Of a DNA stretch of 39,520 nt, positions 21,408-33,888 are shown piece by piece (the stretch's first letter is position 1; every line of letters begins with the position of its first letter). The stretch is from a virus. The position numbers and the translations under genes are program-made. The stretch is taken from IMG/VR virus record IMGVR_UViG_3300032092_002572, positions 1 to 39,520 of that record; one strand, 5' to 3'. Below the pieces are notes generated by a model, which ran no database searches, had not been told where the DNA came from, and saw only the letters and a list, made by a program, of their open reading frames with translations.

Positions 21408-22481
21408 TTATGATTTTAGCGTCTGTGATGGGAAGGGAATACCGCGCTCCATGAGATCTCTTTGAGCAGGGCTTAATCCCTTCGTATCAGCAGCCGTTTT
21501 GCCTACACGGTTCGGCGTTTTAGGCTGACCGTTGTAGACTTCTTTTACCACCTTTTTTTCGGTTTCCGCGATAAGTGACTTAGCTATTTGAACACCTAGA
21601 TCCCCAGACTGAACCTTATGAATGAGGATTTGGTTCGACAACCATTCACGCACCGCTTGTTTACCTTCCTTTGTGGTAGTATCAAAGGCTTGACCTAAAT
21701 AACCTGCATACTGCGACTTCAAAATCGAATCGATCTCTTCGTTTGATACTTTTAACGAAACTTCCGAATCGCCGAATTTGTAGGGGACCTCCTTTAGCTG
21801 CTTACCGTAGGACTCTGCCTCGCTAAGTGCTATAGTCTGTCTTTCCGCAATCTGTCTTTGAGTTTGGCTCTTTAGCTCTTTTGCAAAGGTAAAAGGATTT
21901 TTAACAGTTTCAACATCTTTCTTAGTCTTTTCAATCATTTCGATTGCATCGATTGCATCAGACTTCAAAAGAGCTGTAGCGTAATACTCACCTTCACCTA
22001 AGTTATATTTTTCGCGAATGGCTTCCTCGATAGTCGATTGGCCAAGTCGCTTGAATTTATCTGGATTCTTTACAGCCTCAGCAAGCACAAGTGCCTTCAG
22101 CGGGTCCTCCATTAAACTATCTGCCGTAGAAGATACAATTTGGTTGGCTATAGCAGAGTTAATACCCTTCTTTCCAAAAGCAACCATTGTCTTAGCCTCC
22201 TCAATACCACCAAACGGATCGTCCGCTTCTTGGAGCAAGGCAATTCCCTCTTCAATATCTTTCTGCTTTTCAGCCAACTCTTGTGCTAAACTTTTATAAG
22301 AACGGAGTTGTTCGAACTCGGTCTTAAATGAGTCTTCGCTGTCGTAACCGTAAGCAGAAAACCACGGCGAATCTACCGGGTTAACCTCCTCGTTAACTTG
22401 TTCGTTTACTTGGTCAGCTACTTGATCGTTTACTTGATCGTTCACTTGTTCGTTTTGATTTTCTAATTCGTTCGTTTCCAT
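21408..22481 (-). CDS. Scaffold-like acidic protein before the capsid gene
   Basis: The 357-aa protein is acidic, Glu/Gln/Lys-rich and predicted helical. Its N-terminus consists of about six copies of a four-residue unit (NDQV, NEQV, ADQV) covering residues 10-34. A single aromatic patch follows (SPWFSAYGYDSEDSF), then long helices and a polar tail (GIPFPSQTLKS). Size, acidity, helix content and place between portal and capsid genes are those of an internal scaffolding protein, which guides shell assembly and then leaves. No serine protease motif is seen, so a fused protease is unlikely. Gaps of 5 nt upstream and 25 nt downstream fit tight co-expression. Confidence 0.7.
   Translation of the reverse strand: METNELENQNEQVNDQVNDQVADQVNEQVNEEVNPVDSPWFSAYGYDSEDSFKTEFEQLRSYKSLAQELAEKQKDIEEGIALLQEADDPFGGIEEAKTMVAFGKKGINSAIANQIVSSTADSLMEDPLKALVLAEAVKNPDKFKRLGQSTIEEAIREKYNLGEGEYYATALLKSDAIDAIEMIEKTKKDVETVKNPFTFAKELKSQTQRQIAERQTIALSEAESYGKQLKEVPYKFGDSEVSLKVSNEEIDSILKSQYAGYLGQAFDTTTKEGKQAVREWLSNQILIHKVQSGDLGVQIAKSLIAETEKKVVKEVYNGQPKTPNRVGKTAADTKGLSPAQRDLMERGIPFPSQTLKS
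22380..22454 (-). repeat. Tandem 12-bp repeat in scaffold-like gene
   Basis: About six copies of a 12-bp unit encode N-[D/E]-Q-V at residues 10-34 of the scaffold-like protein. The copies differ at a few bases (one reads ADQV, the last NEEV). Repeats of this length can expand and contract by slippage without breaking the frame. Confidence 0.75.
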
Positions 22482-28859: not shown

Positions 28860-29113
28860 TTGTTTGCTAATTTTTGTTCGTAAATTTCAAGGACTTGTTT
28901 CTGCTTATCAAAGTTCTTCTTCCCAATTGGAATCTTGTTTTTTAACTTATTCACGCATCTACGCAGGGATGAGTAACTACCAAAAACCATAACTGCATCC
29001 CAGTCAGACATCAATCCCTCGACCTTTACCGAGTCAATCTTTTCCCTACGAATGTAGTATTCGTACACCTCTATAATTTTGAGATAGTTATTTTTTGTCT
29101 TTGTTCTGATCAT
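28856..29113 (-). CDS. Small basic protein of unknown function
   Basis: The 85-aa product is basic and helical (NYLKIIEVYEYYIRREKIDS, SLRRCVNKLKNKIPIGKKNF). It overlaps the upstream gene by 26 nt and the GroES-like gene as ATGA, so it is part of the same transcript. The charge pattern would suit nucleic-acid binding, but no known motif is present. Confidence 0.6.
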   Translation of the reverse strand: MIRTKTKNNYLKIIEVYEYYIRREKIDSVKVEGLMSDWDAVMVFGSYSSLRRCVNKLKNKIPIGKKNFDKQKQVLEIYEQKLANK

Positions 29114-29390
29114 AATGCTCTTGCAGTGTTTTGAAGAATGAAGATCGCTTTATTCGTGTCTCCACCTTTGTTTTTGATATTTCATCAAGGGTCTCCCGGT
29201 ATCTTCTTATAGCCTTCTCAACCTGATCCAGGTCCTCAGATGTAATCGCCGGATCGCAATACAAAAGTTTGCGGCGAGACTTGGTGGCCATTGGAGTAAA
29301 AATCCTCATGACCTCGTATATTTCAATCTTCTCCTCAATCATGGTATTGAGTAGAATAATGGCTCTGTTCCAATTTTGCTCGTTATTCAT
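29088..29390 (-). CDS. Small helical protein of unknown function
   Basis: The 100-aa product is nearly all helical and charged (NWNRAIILLNTMIEEKIEIY, then EDLDQVEKAIRRYRETLDEI). It overlaps the first gene of the operon by 8 nt and the next gene by 26 nt. Lys/Arg and Glu/Asp alternate as in coiled-coil proteins. No family is recognised. Confidence 0.6.
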   Translation of the reverse strand: MNNEQNWNRAIILLNTMIEEKIEIYEVMRIFTPMATKSRRKLLYCDPAITSEDLDQVEKAIRRYRETLDEISKTKVETRIKRSSFFKTLQEHYDQNKDKK

Positions 29391-29598
29391 ATACCATCAC
29401 AATATATCGCTCATGCACAGAGTACTCTGTTACATCTTGCAGTTCAACCTTATCTATCTTACCGACAATACAAATACGCTGGCCTACTTCAAATTGGCAG
29501 AAATTACCAACCTTAGTTATAACCGCATCGATTTGCTTGTCAGTTTTATTTTCTATCTCAACAAACACCCGGTGGTCGGGTGGAAACAAATTACTCAT
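29383..29598 (-). CDS. First gene of the late operon; small protein, likely leaderless
   Basis: The 71-aa product starts MSNLFPPDHRVFVEIENKTD and is beta-rich (IDAVITKVGNFCQFEVGQRI, then CIVGKIDKVEL), like a small barrel. An upstream in-frame ATG at 29613 was not chosen because it lies within the -7 box of the late promoter. The chosen ATG follows TATATTTG by four bases, so the mRNA probably starts at or very near the ATG. I do not recognise the family. As the first gene made from the late promoter it could be an early regulator of the switch, but this is a guess. Confidence 0.65.
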   Translation of the reverse strand: MSNLFPPDHRVFVEIENKTDKQIDAVITKVGNFCQFEVGQRICIVGKIDKVELQDVTEYSVHERYIVMVYE

Positions 29599-29602
29599 TT
29601 TG

Positions 29603-29632
29603 CAAATATACAAAAAAACAACACTGTGTCAA
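29603..29632 (-). promoter_or_regulatory. Main late promoter, TTG-N19-TATATTTG
   Basis: On the minus strand TTG (29632-29630) is separated by 19 nt from TATATTTG (29610-29603), a full match to the Bacteroidota pattern. The start codon at 29598 begins four bases further on. It faces away from the early promoter at 29641. It is the only full promoter match found in the gaps upstream of the terminase and head genes, so those probably depend on it. Confidence 0.75.
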
Positions 29633-29663
29633 GTTCTTGCTTGGAAACAAGATTAAACAGTGT
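29621..29663. promoter_or_regulatory. Nested inverted repeats between divergent promoters (operator candidate)
   Basis: A 7-bp outer inverted repeat pairs ACACTGT (29621-29627) with ACAGTGT (29657-29663). Inside it lie CAAG-TT-CTTG (29630-29639) and CTTG-GAAA-CAAG (29640-29651), two further inverted repeats. The inner repeats cover both TTG boxes and the outer pair reaches the -7 side of each promoter. A dimeric repressor or activator bound here could control both directions at once. No regulator gene is recognised nearby. Confidence 0.5.
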
Positions 29664-29670
29664 AAATTTG
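29641..29670 (+). promoter_or_regulatory. Early rightward promoter, TTG-N19-TAAATTTG
   Basis: TTG at 29641-29643 is followed by 19 nt and TAAATTTG at 29663-29670. The ATG of the first rightward gene begins four bases later at 29675, which is the same spacing as on the opposite strand. The -33 boxes of the two promoters are only 8 bp apart. Confidence 0.7.
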
Positions 29671-29674
29671 CGTT

Positions 29675-29866
29675 ATGTTTATCGTTTCAATCTTATTGGT
29701 TTTATTCTGCCTTTCGTTCATGATAAAGAACTCCATATATGGCTGCGGAAAAAGGTGTTACAAGACTCGCAAAGAGGCTCAAGAACACTGTGACTATGAC
29801 CAGCAGGTGTATATGTGCTGGGAGTGCGAAACATGGCATATAAAAAATAATAAAGAAAACACTTGA
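29675..29866 (+). CDS. Small membrane-anchored zinc-ribbon-like protein
   Basis: The 63-aa product has an N-terminal hydrophobic helix (MFIVSILLVLFCLSFMI). A compact domain follows with CGKRCYKTRKEAQEHCDYD and VYMCWECETWHIKN. The CxxxC, CxxC and W-H arrangement matches the common small phage proteins that end in YxCxxCxxWH, which probably bind zinc. The membrane segment in front is less usual. The start is supported by a promoter ending four bases before the ATG, so the mRNA is probably leaderless. It is the first gene of the early block and likely among the earliest products. Function is unknown. Confidence 0.65.
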   Translation: MFIVSILLVLFCLSFMIKNSIYGCGKRCYKTRKEAQEHCDYDQQVYMCWECETWHIKNNKENT

Positions 29867-29893
29867 CAACCTCGCGTGGTTGTTTTATGTTTG
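29863..29893 (+). promoter_or_regulatory. Replication-operon promoter with palindrome in the spacer
   Basis: TTG at 29863-29865 lies 20 nt from TATGTTTG at 29886-29893, a full match to the Bacteroidota pattern. Within the spacer, ACAACC (29866-29871) and GGTTGT (29878-29883) flank TCGCGT, an 18-bp palindrome with only the two central-flank T bases unpaired. A repressor bound there would block the polymerase. The same palindrome followed by four T could also act as a weak terminator for the preceding small gene. Confidence 0.65.
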
Positions 29894-29898
29894 CTGAA

Positions 29899-30010
29899 AT
29901 ATTCCGCCCCCCGTTTGTTAAGAGCAACAACAACCGGGGGTTGGAAGGTGGTTACAAATCATAACCAACTCAAAAGCCCGTAAAGTTGCTCTTACGGGTT
30001 TTTTTATTCT
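29899..30010 (+). ncRNA. Structured leader RNA of the replication gene (attenuator candidate)
   Basis: From the predicted start near 29899 to the ATG at 30011 the leader folds by eye into three hairpins. Hairpin 1 pairs 29908-29919 with 29929-29940 (11 of 12 pairs, five G-C at the base) and has a 9-nt loop. Hairpin 2 pairs TGGTTA (29949-29954) with TAACCA (29962-29967). The third is an intrinsic terminator just before the gene. TAAGAGCAAC (29919-29928, loop side of hairpin 1) is the exact complement of GTTGCTCTTA (29985-29994, terminator loop plus the 5' end of its right arm). Pairing of these would prevent the terminator stem, so the leader can exist in two exclusive states. No known riboswitch class is recognised, and energies were not calculated. 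Confidence 0.55.
29972..30005 (+). terminator. Intrinsic terminator directly before the replication initiator gene
   Basis: The stem CCCGTAA (29977-29983) with TTACGGG (29992-29998), extended by G-U and A-U pairs, encloses an 8-nt loop and is followed by seven T (29999-30005). It ends five bases before the ATG of the replication gene. It would stop transcripts from both upstream promoters unless prevented. On the other strand only a short T-run follows, so it works mainly rightward. Confidence 0.75.
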
Positions 30011-30706
30011 ATGAACACAGGACAAATTGTTAAAGGGAAGCGCAAGCATGACTTCGCGATTATCCCAAACGAAATCTCGCAATCCGATCAGCTTACAATG
30101 GAGGAGAAGGGAATGATGTGCTTCCTTCTTTCGCTTCCGGACAATTGGGTGCTTTACAAGAAGAATATGTATGATCAGCTTCCCGATGGAAAACACGCGA
30201 TTGACCGTGTGTTTAAGTCCCTGCAAGACAAGGGTTATGTGCTTAGTTGTCGTCACATGGATGCTGCCACAGGCAGGATGTTGGGTTGGAACCATATTGT
30301 GTATGATGAACCTCAACTTGACCGAGAAGCGGATTTACCGACATCTGGTTTTCCCGTTGTCGGTGATACCCAACAGTCGGGTAACATCGATATATATAAA
30401 GAAACAAACATCTACAAAGAAACAAAAACATATAAATACGCATTTGATGATTTTTGGCTTGCCTACGACAAGAAGGTGGACAAGAAGCAAACCCTTGCTG
30501 TTTGGAATAAACTATCTGATGAGGACCGTACACACGCAGTAGAAGGCATGGGGAACCATAAGAGTGGGCGCGAGAAAAAATATTGGAAAGATCCGGTGCG
30601 ATATCTTCGAGATAGAAGGTGGGAAGACGAAACAACGAATACGAATACAAATGCAAAACAAATTAATTACAGCTATGACCCAAATGACCCAAGGAATAAA
30701 TGGTAA
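30011..30706 (+). CDS. Phage replication initiator (winged helix plus C-terminal domain)
   Basis: The 231-aa product has an N-terminal winged helix (FAIIPNEISQSDQLTMEEKG, LLSLPDNWVLYKKNMYDQLP, IDRVFKSLQDKGYVLSCRH), as in phage replisome organisers. A low-complexity linker follows around residues 125-145 (IYKETNIYKETKTYK). The C-terminal part (FDDFWLAYDKKVDKKQTLAV, NKLSDEDRTHAVEGM, then PVRYLRDRRWED) is shared by many phage replication proteins. The protein would bind the phage origin and load the helicase made from the next gene, which starts inside its 3' end. The linker DNA is repetitive, as in origin-containing initiator genes such as lambda O. Expression appears to be controlled by the terminator just before it. 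Confidence 0.75.
   Translation: MNTGQIVKGKRKHDFAIIPNEISQSDQLTMEEKGMMCFLLSLPDNWVLYKKNMYDQLPDGKHAIDRVFKSLQDKGYVLSCRHMDAATGRMLGWNHIVYDEPQLDREADLPTSGFPVVGDTQQSGNIDIYKETNIYKETKTYKYAFDDFWLAYDKKVDKKQTLAVWNKLSDEDRTHAVEGMGNHKSGREKKYWKDPVRYLRDRRWEDETTNTNTNAKQINYSYDPNDPRNKW
30392..30427 (+). repeat. Two 18-bp iteron-like repeats inside the initiator gene
   Basis: Positions 30392-30409 and 30410-30427 are tandem 18-bp copies differing at four bases; both contain the core AAAGAAACAAA. A third, partial copy begins at 30428 with ACATATAAA. They encode the IYKET repeats of the linker and lie in an AT-rich stretch. Initiator-binding iterons of a replication origin are a likely reading. Confidence 0.55.
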
Positions 30707-32621
30707 GGTATCCATCTACAAAGACTTTAACGACCTGCAAGGACACCAAGTTAGTATACTGGGCGCACTTGAACGAATTAGGACTGGAAAGTCAAAGGCA
30801 CTTGTTGAGAAGGCGAGGGAAGCCAAAACCAAGAAAGAGGCGGACGAGTTAAAAAAGAAACTCCCTGCCGTTTGTTTTAGTGGCACTTTTTCCAAGAGAA
30901 AGGACTCAGAACTGCTTGAACATTCGGGATATATCGTTTTGGACTTCGATAACGTGGCGGATATGGCCCAAAAACGAAACGAATTGTGTTCGGTGGGGTA
31001 TATTACCGCGGTCTGGGTTTCGCCCTCAGGAAAGGGCTTAAAAGCGCTCGTTCAAATTGAGTGGAAAACCAAGCATAAGGAACACTTTGATTCTCTGATG
31101 GCGGAGATGCCTGACATCGACAAAACTGGTCGCAATGTTTCCCGATTATGTTTTGAGTCGTATGACCCCGAACTATACTACAATCCTAACGCAGAAATTT
31201 ACACTAAACTGCCGGTAAAGAAGGCCGATAGAAGATTGCCTCAACAGACAACTACCGAGACGATTAACGACGACGACAAGATATTCCAGAATCTTTTGAC
31301 GTGGATGACATCAAAGGGTGATGCGTTCCGTGAAGGGGAAAGAAACCACTTCGTGTTCAAGTTGGCTGCAAGCTGCTGCCGATTCGGGATGATGGAGGAG
31401 GCCTGCTACAACTTAATGATGATGCACGTCACCCCCGACTCTAGCTTTAGTCAGAAGGAGTGCCGTCAAGCAATCCGCAGTGCGTATCGGGCCAACATGA
31501 ATCAGTGGAATACTGCCGAGTTTACTAAGGACCAATTAGTTAGCAAGATTAATCACAAGGAAGTAGAGATTGTAATCACCGCAGAAGATGCGGAGAATAT
31601 CGCCGCAGAGGATGTGATTTACGCTGAGGAAGTAATGGAACAGGCGTCCGAGATTTACCTCAAGGGATATCAAGCCGCCATGCCACTCGGTGTGCCTCTA
31701 CTTGACAAACACTTCAAAAGGGTCAAGGGTGAATTAACAATTGTTTCCGGAATAGGAAACTATGGTAAGTCATCGTTCATGAAATGGGAGATGATATTCC
31801 GCATGGTTAAGTTTGGAGAGAAGGTGGCCATCTTTACCCCTGAAGAATTGCCGGCGGAACAGTTCTACCATGACCTTGTTGAGATTTACTTTGGAAAGGA
31901 CTGTACACCAAGCAATTACAATAGACCTAGTTACGACGCGTACATGAAGGTTTATAAGATGATCGGCGAACACATCTTCATGGTATACCCCAAGAACGTA
32001 AGCCCTACGCCTGACTACGTAAAAGAAGTTTTCCTCAGTATGATCATCAAACACGGGGTGGATCGTGTGATTATTGACCCGTTCAATCAGATGGCCAACG
32101 ACTACACCAAGGGCGGTGGTCGCAGCGATAAGTACCTAGAGACGTTTCTTTCAGACTGCACCCGATTTGCCCGAAAGAATAACGTGTACTTCGACATCGT
32201 TGTCCACCCACACAAGATGCGTAAAGGAGACGACGGCAACTACCCGTGTCCAGAAGTGTTTGACCTTGCTGATGGTGCGATGTGGAACAACAAGGCGGAC
32301 AATATTATCATTTACCACCGTCCACTTGCTCAGACCGCACCGGAAAGTCCTTTGTGTGAATTCCACTCCAAGAAGATCCGCAGACAAAAGATTGTAGGTA
32401 TCAAGGGATTCTTTGACTTTGAACTTGTAAGGTCTACTCGCAGGTTCACGTTCGAGGGGGTTGATTACCTTCAACAGGCCATCGACGGAAAGTATGTCCA
32501 GTCCGAGATCAAGCAGCCAACAGCAATAAAGCCAAACAGAAATTGGACGGACTCAAAAGAGGCAAAGGAATGGAATGAGGATGTAGCGCACCCGAATGGA
32601 TATAAGGAGGCGTGGGAATAA
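30675..32621 (+). CDS. VirE_N-type primase fused to DnaB-like helicase
   Basis: The 648-aa product (from the ATG at 30675) has three parts. Residues 1-190 resemble the VirE N-terminal / BT4734-like domain of Bacteroidota (VSIYKDFNDLQ, LPAVCFSGTFSKRKDSELLE, VLDFDN, VSPSGKGLKALV). Residues 200-290 are a helical linker like the primase C-terminal region. Residues about 330-620 are a RecA-fold helicase with Walker A GIGNYGKS at 359-366, Walker B VIIDPFNQ near 466 and VVHPHK. This is the layout of replicative primase-helicases (T7 gp4/Twinkle type). A longer reading frame starts at 30564 but runs inside the initiator gene with no family match, so I chose 30675 (30684 is also possible). It overlaps the initiator gene by 32 nt. 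Confidence 0.85.
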   Translation: MTQMTQGINGKVSIYKDFNDLQGHQVSILGALERIRTGKSKALVEKAREAKTKKEADELKKKLPAVCFSGTFSKRKDSELLEHSGYIVLDFDNVADMAQKRNELCSVGYITAVWVSPSGKGLKALVQIEWKTKHKEHFDSLMAEMPDIDKTGRNVSRLCFESYDPELYYNPNAEIYTKLPVKKADRRLPQQTTTETINDDDKIFQNLLTWMTSKGDAFREGERNHFVFKLAASCCRFGMMEEACYNLMMMHVTPDSSFSQKECRQAIRSAYRANMNQWNTAEFTKDQLVSKINHKEVEIVITAEDAENIAAEDVIYAEEVMEQASEIYLKGYQAAMPLGVPLLDKHFKRVKGELTIVSGIGNYGKSSFMKWEMIFRMVKFGEKVAIFTPEELPAEQFYHDLVEIYFGKDCTPSNYNRPSYDAYMKVYKMIGEHIFMVYPKNVSPTPDYVKEVFLSMIIKHGVDRVIIDPFNQMANDYTKGGGRSDKYLETFLSDCTRFARKNNVYFDIVVHPHKMRKGDDGNYPCPEVFDLADGAMWNNKADNIIIYHRPLAQTAPESPLCEFHSKKIRRQKIVGIKGFFDFELVRSTRRFTFEGVDYLQQAIDGKYVQSEIKQPTAIKPNRNWTDSKEAKEWNEDVAHPNGYKEAWE

Positions 32622-32636
32622 TTTAACATTTTTTTC

Positions 32637-32667
32637 TTGCACAAAAGAAACACATATGCTACATTTG
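32637..32667 (+). promoter_or_regulatory. Promoter of the SSB gene, TTG-N20-TACATTTG
   Basis: TTG at 32637-32639 and TACATTTG at 32660-32667, 20 nt apart, match the Bacteroidota pattern fully. The SSB start codon lies 32 nt further, after an AT-rich leader without a Shine-Dalgarno sequence. A separate promoter would let the phage make much more SSB than helicase. Confidence 0.75.
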
Positions 32668-32699: not shown

Positions 32700-33332
32700 A
32701 TGGGATTAAATCAAGGTGGTTCATCAAACCGTACTTACCTCAGCATATCTGGTGGTAAGATTGCCAAGCGAGTTCCGGAAGGTACAGCTGGCTCAATTAA
32801 GTGTAACAGCAAGGACGGCACTAAGGTGTGGTATGAGCAGCGATTTGCTTCGCTCTCAGGTTACATCGTGGACGTTTTCAAGCGTGTATCCGAACAGGGT
32901 TACGGCGATCAGCTGTGCGTTGTTCTGAAAGATGGTTCAGAGGAGTACCAAATCCAGATGCCGTGGTCATCACGCTACTCATCTGGCTTCTTCTTGTCAA
33001 TGCCTAACATCGACGCAGGTAAAGAAATTACTCTTACCCCATGGTCTAAGGAGGTTGACGGAAAGACACGCACAATGCTTTACCTCCGTCACGGACAGGA
33101 GGACATCAAGTGGGGTTGGACCAAGGACAACCCAGGCAATATGCCTGAGATGAAGCAGATCAAGGTAAAAGGTCAGATTGTATGGGACGACTCAGAGCGT
33201 CAAGAGTTCTTCGAGAAGCACCTCAACGACATCTTCATGCCACAAGTGAAAGCTGTTAGTTCCGTGAAAAAATTAGACTCATACGCCCCTCAGGCGGTAG
33301 AGGATCCGGACGATGACGGATTGCCATTCTAA
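32700..33332 (+). CDS. ssb: Single-stranded DNA-binding protein
   Basis: The 210-aa product has a beta-rich core with aromatic residues (KVWYEQRFASLSGYIVDVFK, YQIQMPWSSRYSSGFFLSMP). It ends in an acidic tail closing with DPDDDGLPF, the signature tip through which SSB proteins recruit replication partners. It would coat single-stranded DNA during phage replication. The core does not resemble E. coli SSB closely, but the layout fits SSBs of Bacteroidota phages. Its own strong promoter and its place between helicase and DnaA-like genes support the call. Confidence 0.75.
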   Translation: MGLNQGGSSNRTYLSISGGKIAKRVPEGTAGSIKCNSKDGTKVWYEQRFASLSGYIVDVFKRVSEQGYGDQLCVVLKDGSEEYQIQMPWSSRYSSGFFLSMPNIDAGKEITLTPWSKEVDGKTRTMLYLRHGQEDIKWGWTKDNPGNMPEMKQIKVKGQIVWDDSERQEFFEKHLNDIFMPQVKAVSSVKKLDSYAPQAVEDPDDDGLPF

Positions 33333-33402: not shown

Positions 33403-33888
33403 ATGAGATATACATTCAAAGACCTAGTGGACATGGTTCCGGTTACAAGACGAGCGGAGTTCACGAAGATTTACGAATACCTACACAAGGTAGATAATCC
33501 GCATGAAAATGAAATATTAGAAAAGGTTAGCAAACACTTCAATGTTGTTACTGCGGACATCAAGAGTGATAAGCGTTACGCTGACATAGTTTTGGCTCGC
33601 CATGTATACATGGCCGCTGTAAAAGTTTGCTCTACCAAGAGTCTAGCAGAGGTTGCCAGAACAGTTAACAAAGATCATTCAACTGTCTGTCACGCAATTA
33701 AAACCGTGAGAGGTGATTATTCTTACAACGTAGTGCGCCGCAATAAAATACGGCACTTCATCGCTGACCTAGATCCAACCAAACAAGAACTTTTATTAGA
33801 TTTTTTCAATGAACGGAATCCCGATATACTTGCCGCCTACGCCGTCGACGCAGACCGAGTTACAGCACCTGCGGAAGCTAAGGCATAA
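33403..33888 (+). CDS. Stand-alone DnaA domain IV-like DNA-binding protein
   Basis: Residues about 40-105 of this 161-aa protein follow the DNA-binding domain IV of DnaA. There is HFNVVTADIKSDKRYADIV with the conserved R, then ARHVYMAAVKVCSTKSLAEV, and DHSTV at 91-95, the DnaA signature for contact with DnaA boxes. There is no AAA+ ATPase part. The N-terminal 35 residues and the Ala-rich C-terminus are not recognised. It could bind DnaA-box-like sites in phage or host DNA, for example to redirect or block host initiation or to mark the phage origin. It sits in the replication block, after the SSB gene. Confidence 0.75.
   Translation: MRYTFKDLVDMVPVTRRAEFTKIYEYLHKVDNPHENEILEKVSKHFNVVTADIKSDKRYADIVLARHVYMAAVKVCSTKSLAEVARTVNKDHSTVCHAIKTVRGDYSYNVVRRNKIRHFIADLDPTKQELLLDFFNERNPDILAAYAVDADRVTAPAEAKA

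Follow-up and report, generated by a model that had tools for sequence, protein, structure and literature searches.

A conserved divergent promoter unit predicted to give leaderless mRNAs on both strands in an uncultured freshwater phage family

Gene content and layout of the divergent unit

The window analysed here, the whole of a 39,520-bp viral record (43% GC), carries minus-strand genes that lead into terminase and portal, and plus-strand genes that include repA, a primase/helicase and a metallo-phosphoesterase. A tandem repeat (12-bp unit, 5.5 copies, 22390-22455) lies inside the coding region adjoining the portal gene, and a protein with a DnaA C-terminal DNA-binding domain is encoded on the plus strand at 33403-33888 (Pfam E 4.7e-18). 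The phage belongs to an uncultured, freshwater family whose hosts are probably Flavobacteria/Bacteroidota, because the terminase relatives belong to Flavobacterium and Cellulophaga phages (about 24% identity), a terminase search returned a 96% match on one small contig of a Flavobacteriales MAG, and the promoters are of the TAnnTTTG type. No close relatives were found among cultured phages, either by DNA or by the protein P0001.

P0001 (29383..29598, minus strand; 71 aa) is the first gene of the terminase/portal operon. In its structure model (pLDDT 84.5), P0001 is a beta-barrel of the Cpn10/GroES fold, the top 15 VIA-align rows being all Cpn10-type with Z from 8.1 to 10.8 (10.8 to Thermus thermophilus Cpn10, 8.1 to T4 gp31) and Foldseek giving an E of 5e-4. 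It shares its fold with GroES/Cpn10 and T4 gp31 but differs in its length of 71 residues, and it may be without the mobile loop that binds GroEL, 14 residues at this loop being omitted from an hhalign alignment that is itself weak (E 0.011, low probability). Its start codon is well defined: 45 sequences align from Met1, and no other Met occurs before residue 67. In the Flavobacterium phage elemoF, a gene annotated as GroES also adjoins the terminase.

On the opposite strand, P0002 (29675..29866, plus strand; 63 aa) begins with a hydrophobic N-terminus and continues into a Cys/His-rich part; it carries a conserved C-x2-C-x2-WH motif and matches no Pfam family at cut-off. Of 44 distinct variants, 43 share the length of 63 residues. 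Codons 2-15 vary as expected of coding sequence, with 71% identity at positions 1 and 2 and 51% at position 3. A terminator-like hairpin that follows P0002 (29865-29884) is missing from some relatives, and we do not claim that P0002 is monocistronic.

The whole unit is 82 bp long (29596..29677) and consists of a 76-bp intergenic region, which holds two back-to-back promoters, and a start codon at either end. Reading along the minus strand, a -33 element (TTGACAC, its TTG at 29632-29630) and a 19-nt spacer (together 29611..29632) are followed by the -7 box TATATTTG (29603..29610), a 4-nt gap (CAAA, 29599..29602) and the P0001 ATG (29598-29596). The plus strand repeats this arrangement, with a TTG at 29641-29643 and 19-nt spacer (together 29641..29662), the -7 box TAAATTTG (29663..29670), a 4-nt gap (CGTT, 29671..29674) and the P0002 ATG (29675-29677). 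Exactly 8 bp (29633-29640) separate the two TTG boxes. On either strand the TAnnTTTG -7 element and TTG+19 fit the Bacteroidota sigma-A promoter. The full pattern TTG-N19-TAnnTTTG-N4-ATG matches the window twice, both times at this unit, where 0.02 matches are expected by chance; none of 100 shuffles contained two matches. No further TAnnTTTG was found in a scan of 29611-32660 on the minus strand and 29082-29662 on the plus strand. The preliminary description of this locus spanned 29603-29670, that is, both -7 boxes, and proposed two back-to-back promoters with -33 boxes 8 bp apart and exactly four bases between TAnnTTTG and ATG on each side; both features are read directly in the sequence. 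Control of the unit through DnaA boxes was considered, since the phage encodes the DnaA-domain protein at 33403, and rejected: TTWTNCACA sites were no commoner than chance, and none lies in the gap between the genes.

Predicted transcription start sites

Mapped F. johnsoniae promoters have the first T of the -7 box at -12 and its last G at -5, with the start site 4-5 nt beyond the box (PMC6847099), and the box occupies the same -12 to -5 position in F. psychrophilum (PMC9723704). A 4-nt gap combined with this published distance places +1 on the A of each ATG, i.e. at 29598 on the minus strand and at 29675 on the plus strand. Both mRNAs are thus strongly predicted, from sequence, to be leaderless, as the preliminary description had proposed, and the case rests on the conservation of the gap together with the start-site position published for F. 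johnsoniae.

The bases around the predicted start sites were also compared among relatives. The usual start-site context is a pyrimidine at -1 and a purine at +1. With +1 as the A of ATG, the -1 base on the plus side is T in 35/35 haplotypes, and on the minus side it is a pyrimidine in 33/35. The window's own minus-side -1 base is an A, not a pyrimidine, which counts against a leaderless start there. The minus-side -3 base is an A in nearly all members of clade A, the clade of the window. This A might be taken for a Kozak-like leader signal, which would likewise count against a leaderless start, though clades B and C lack it.

Were transcription to begin elsewhere, from upstream promoters or through other sigma factors, the mRNAs would carry leaders. 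Leaders prevail in the Flavobacterium species mapped: in F. johnsoniae 87% of them are longer than 10 nt (PMC6847099), and only 5.5% of F. psychrophilum mRNAs are leaderless (PMC9723704). However, the scanned intervals upstream of the two boxes hold no alternative TAnnTTTG, and leadered transcripts would not account for the invariance of the boxes or for a gap fixed at 4 nt, so that we regard this alternative as very improbable. Leaders shorter than 10 nt amount to 3.7% in Bacteroides thetaiotaomicron (PMC7366714), and the leaderless share of Bacteroidota transcripts is about 4-5% (PMC9723704, PMC7366714). Given this rarity, two leaderless mRNAs in one divergent pair would be unusual. In elemoF, a gap of 4 nt occurs at 3 of 13 promoters, gaps of 5-13 nt at none, and the rest fall at 14-32 nt, a distribution in which the 4-nt gap resembles a discrete class.

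Conservation across the phage family and its sister clades

To compare the unit between relatives, haplotypes were gathered by protein searches with repA and P0001, which yielded 33 distinct units without an indel; in all, 35 distinct haplotypes are available, and none carries an indel. A second search of 2.9 million viral contigs used the minus promoter only, the gap and the plus side being left out of the pattern, and returned 55 contigs. In every one of these 55 the gap is 4 nt on both sides, the start codon lies at the promoter-predicted +1 on both sides, and the two -7 boxes are 52 bp apart. The preliminary description had set this comparison in related phages beforehand as a test of the leaderless prediction; as the spacing proved conserved, it gives no refutation.

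Across the 35 haplotypes, the minus -7 box is invariant at 8/8 bases, the minus TTG at 3/3 and the minus spacer at 12/19, and the plus side is invariant at 7/8 bases of the -7 box and 4/19 of the spacer; in one haplotype (L050) the plus-side -33 element departs from TTG+19. Mean identity over the intergenic gap is 83%, whereas the third positions of P0002 codons reach 61%. Conservation extends beyond the boxes: GTGTCAA, which adjoins the minus -33 box, is invariant, as are 5/8 of the middle base pairs between the TTG boxes.

Constraint of this kind, reaching into the spacers and the middle 8 bp and fixing the length between the -7 boxes, could mean that the geometry is kept for reasons acting at the DNA level, such as an operator or obligatory competition between polymerases, the 4-nt gaps being a by-product and leaderless translation having no special role. 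We consider this a real possibility, somewhat short of an even chance. It is countered by the sister clades B and C (L128/L132/L139 and L025/L037/L038/L144), in which the promoter sequence differs and the plus-side layout is different, with no plus-side 4-nt gap in either clade, yet the box still stands exactly 4 nt before P0001. Retention of the minus-side gap despite these changes suggests that it is conserved independently of the divergent geometry. A zero-length P0001 leader would therefore be the deeper feature, and the symmetry a trait of the main clade.

Other promoters within the family are leadered and less rigidly spaced, with a box-to-ATG gap of 25-26 nt before the portal gene, 30-38 nt before the gene at 32700 and 15-16 nt before the metallo-phosphoesterase. 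A copy of TAAATTTG 6 nt before the portal gene was considered as a near-leaderless candidate and rejected, since some relatives lack it and the conserved box is the one at 25-26 nt. The uniformity of the divergent unit may also owe something to its recent history. A single promoter haplotype stands beside P0001 alleles that are 37-96% identical to that of the window (L016, L018, L030, L035, L059, L069), which suggests module recombination or exchange at the start codon; identical units beside divergent alleles imply that the gap uniformity may be partly due to recent exchange of the module.

The repA leader and the question of a phage switch

Downstream of P0002, repA has a promoter separate from the plus-strand leaderless one (29863..29893, plus strand), comprising TTGACA and, 20 nt after its TTG, the box TATGTTTG. 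In L139 the homologous position reads TATATTTG, and in L037/L038 it reads TACATTTG. A structured leader RNA of about 110 nt (29898..30006, plus strand; fold z -4.9) precedes repA itself (30011..30706, plus strand), which encodes a replication initiation protein (phrog_270, E 4.4e-17). The leader comprises hairpin 1 (29902-29946), a middle hairpin, and a terminator hairpin (about 29972-30003) immediately ahead of the repA start codon. Hairpin 1 has a loop (GAGCAAC, 29922-29928) complementary to that of the terminator (GTTGCTC, 29985-29991). Over 38 sequences, 99.1% of pair cells in the leader hold, vs 38-52% when the pairing is slid, and the loop-loop helix is 100% paired with two covarying pairs. 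Two interchangeable loop pairings occur, GAGCAAC/GTTGCTC in 19 sequences and GAACCAC/GTGGTTC in the other 19, and the two loops co-switch on the same stem and middle-hairpin backgrounds; a third complementary combination, GTAGTGC/GCACTAC, is present in the distant phage L049. A covariance model detects the leader in all seven of the clade B and C phages listed above. No Rfam family is found in the window at gathering score, the best sub-threshold match to the leader reaching 21 bits of the 59 needed. These data suggest that the repA leader is likely a transcription attenuator with a kissing loop, and it is more novel than the promoter unit. With its own promoter and a terminator-bearing leader, repA does not rely on the leaderless promoter alone.

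These data bear on whether the locus is a lambda-like switch, in which operators in the gap would bind a phage repressor and so alternate early and late transcription. A divergent layout in which the structural operon faces away from the replication genes is in keeping with such a switch, and the gap does contain invariant bases outside the promoters. However, neither flanking gene is a repressor, P0001 having the Cpn10 fold and P0002 a hydrophobic N-terminus with no family match; no HTH family matched either protein. Moreover, none of the proteins searched was identified as an integrase, the repA search found no prophage copy among 84,980 species genomes, and repA has the separate promoter and terminator leader described above. 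A lambda-like switch is thus an unlikely reading. The preliminary description had spoken of a phage switch, a label that the evidence does not support: no repressor gene is adjacent, both promoters match the host consensus, and two sister clades lack the plus-side 4-nt gap. Its terms 'late' and 'early' survive in part: the minus operon indeed continues into terminase and portal, but the plus-side leaderless gene is a small 63-aa ORF, and repA has its own promoter.

Discussion

The reading we favour, and consider highly probable, is that the 76-bp gap is a conserved bidirectional unit used by the primary sigma factor of the Bacteroidota host, with both transcripts starting at the A of AUG. Each promoter would place its TTG at -33, TAnnTTTG at -12 to -5 and the start codon at the start-site position, such that both transcripts would have a leader of at most 1 nt. 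The minus transcript would begin with the Cpn10-fold gene and continue to terminase and portal, and the plus transcript would yield the 63-aa P0002. As the hosts use no SD sequence, the 5'-terminal AUG would itself serve as the ribosome entry signal. The preliminary description went on to the hypothesis that leaderless starts on both sides would tie expression to ribosome state. The centres of the two -33 boxes are separated by 11 bp, which suggests that two polymerases could probably not bind freely together; the two operons would thus probably compete for, or alternate in, promoter use.

The boxes, their spacing and the expected start-site position match the Flavobacterium consensus for sigma-ABfr/sigma-A promoters (TTTG at -33, TAnnTTTG at -7). 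The phage unit differs in that its box stands exactly 4 nt before the ATG, whereas typical F. johnsoniae leaders average 33 nt. It resembles known leaderless mRNAs of Bacteroidota in that the 5' ends are predicted at the start codon, and differs from them in that both divergent partners are predicted to be leaderless and are fixed family-wide.

Lambda PRM and PR are likewise divergent promoters, of which PRM gives the leaderless cI mRNA and PR the leadered cro. The phage unit shares the divergent arrangement and a predicted leaderless first gene; unlike lambda, it is predicted to have no leader on the second side either, and it has no identified repressor genes or operators. Leaderless mRNAs and divergent promoters are each already known; what is new is a family-wide divergent pair predicted to be leaderless on both sides.

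More speculatively, the central control region of the family may make deliberate use of leaderless initiation at both divergent operons and so sidestep translation that depends on a leader, in a host that lacks SD sequences. The expression of repA would then be governed by a leader RNA of a new class, whose hairpin loop forms a kissing contact with the terminator loop through one of several exchangeable complementary pairings. This combined proposal is tentative, and we think it rather unlikely to hold in full.

Leaderless mRNAs are rare in Bacteroidota, at about 4-6%, and how they are translated in hosts without SD sequences has been little studied. Predicted zero-length leaders that are fixed on both sides, while other promoters drift, provide a natural test for selection on leaderless initiation, and the unit is a ready, short promoter-gene construct for reporter work in Flavobacterium.
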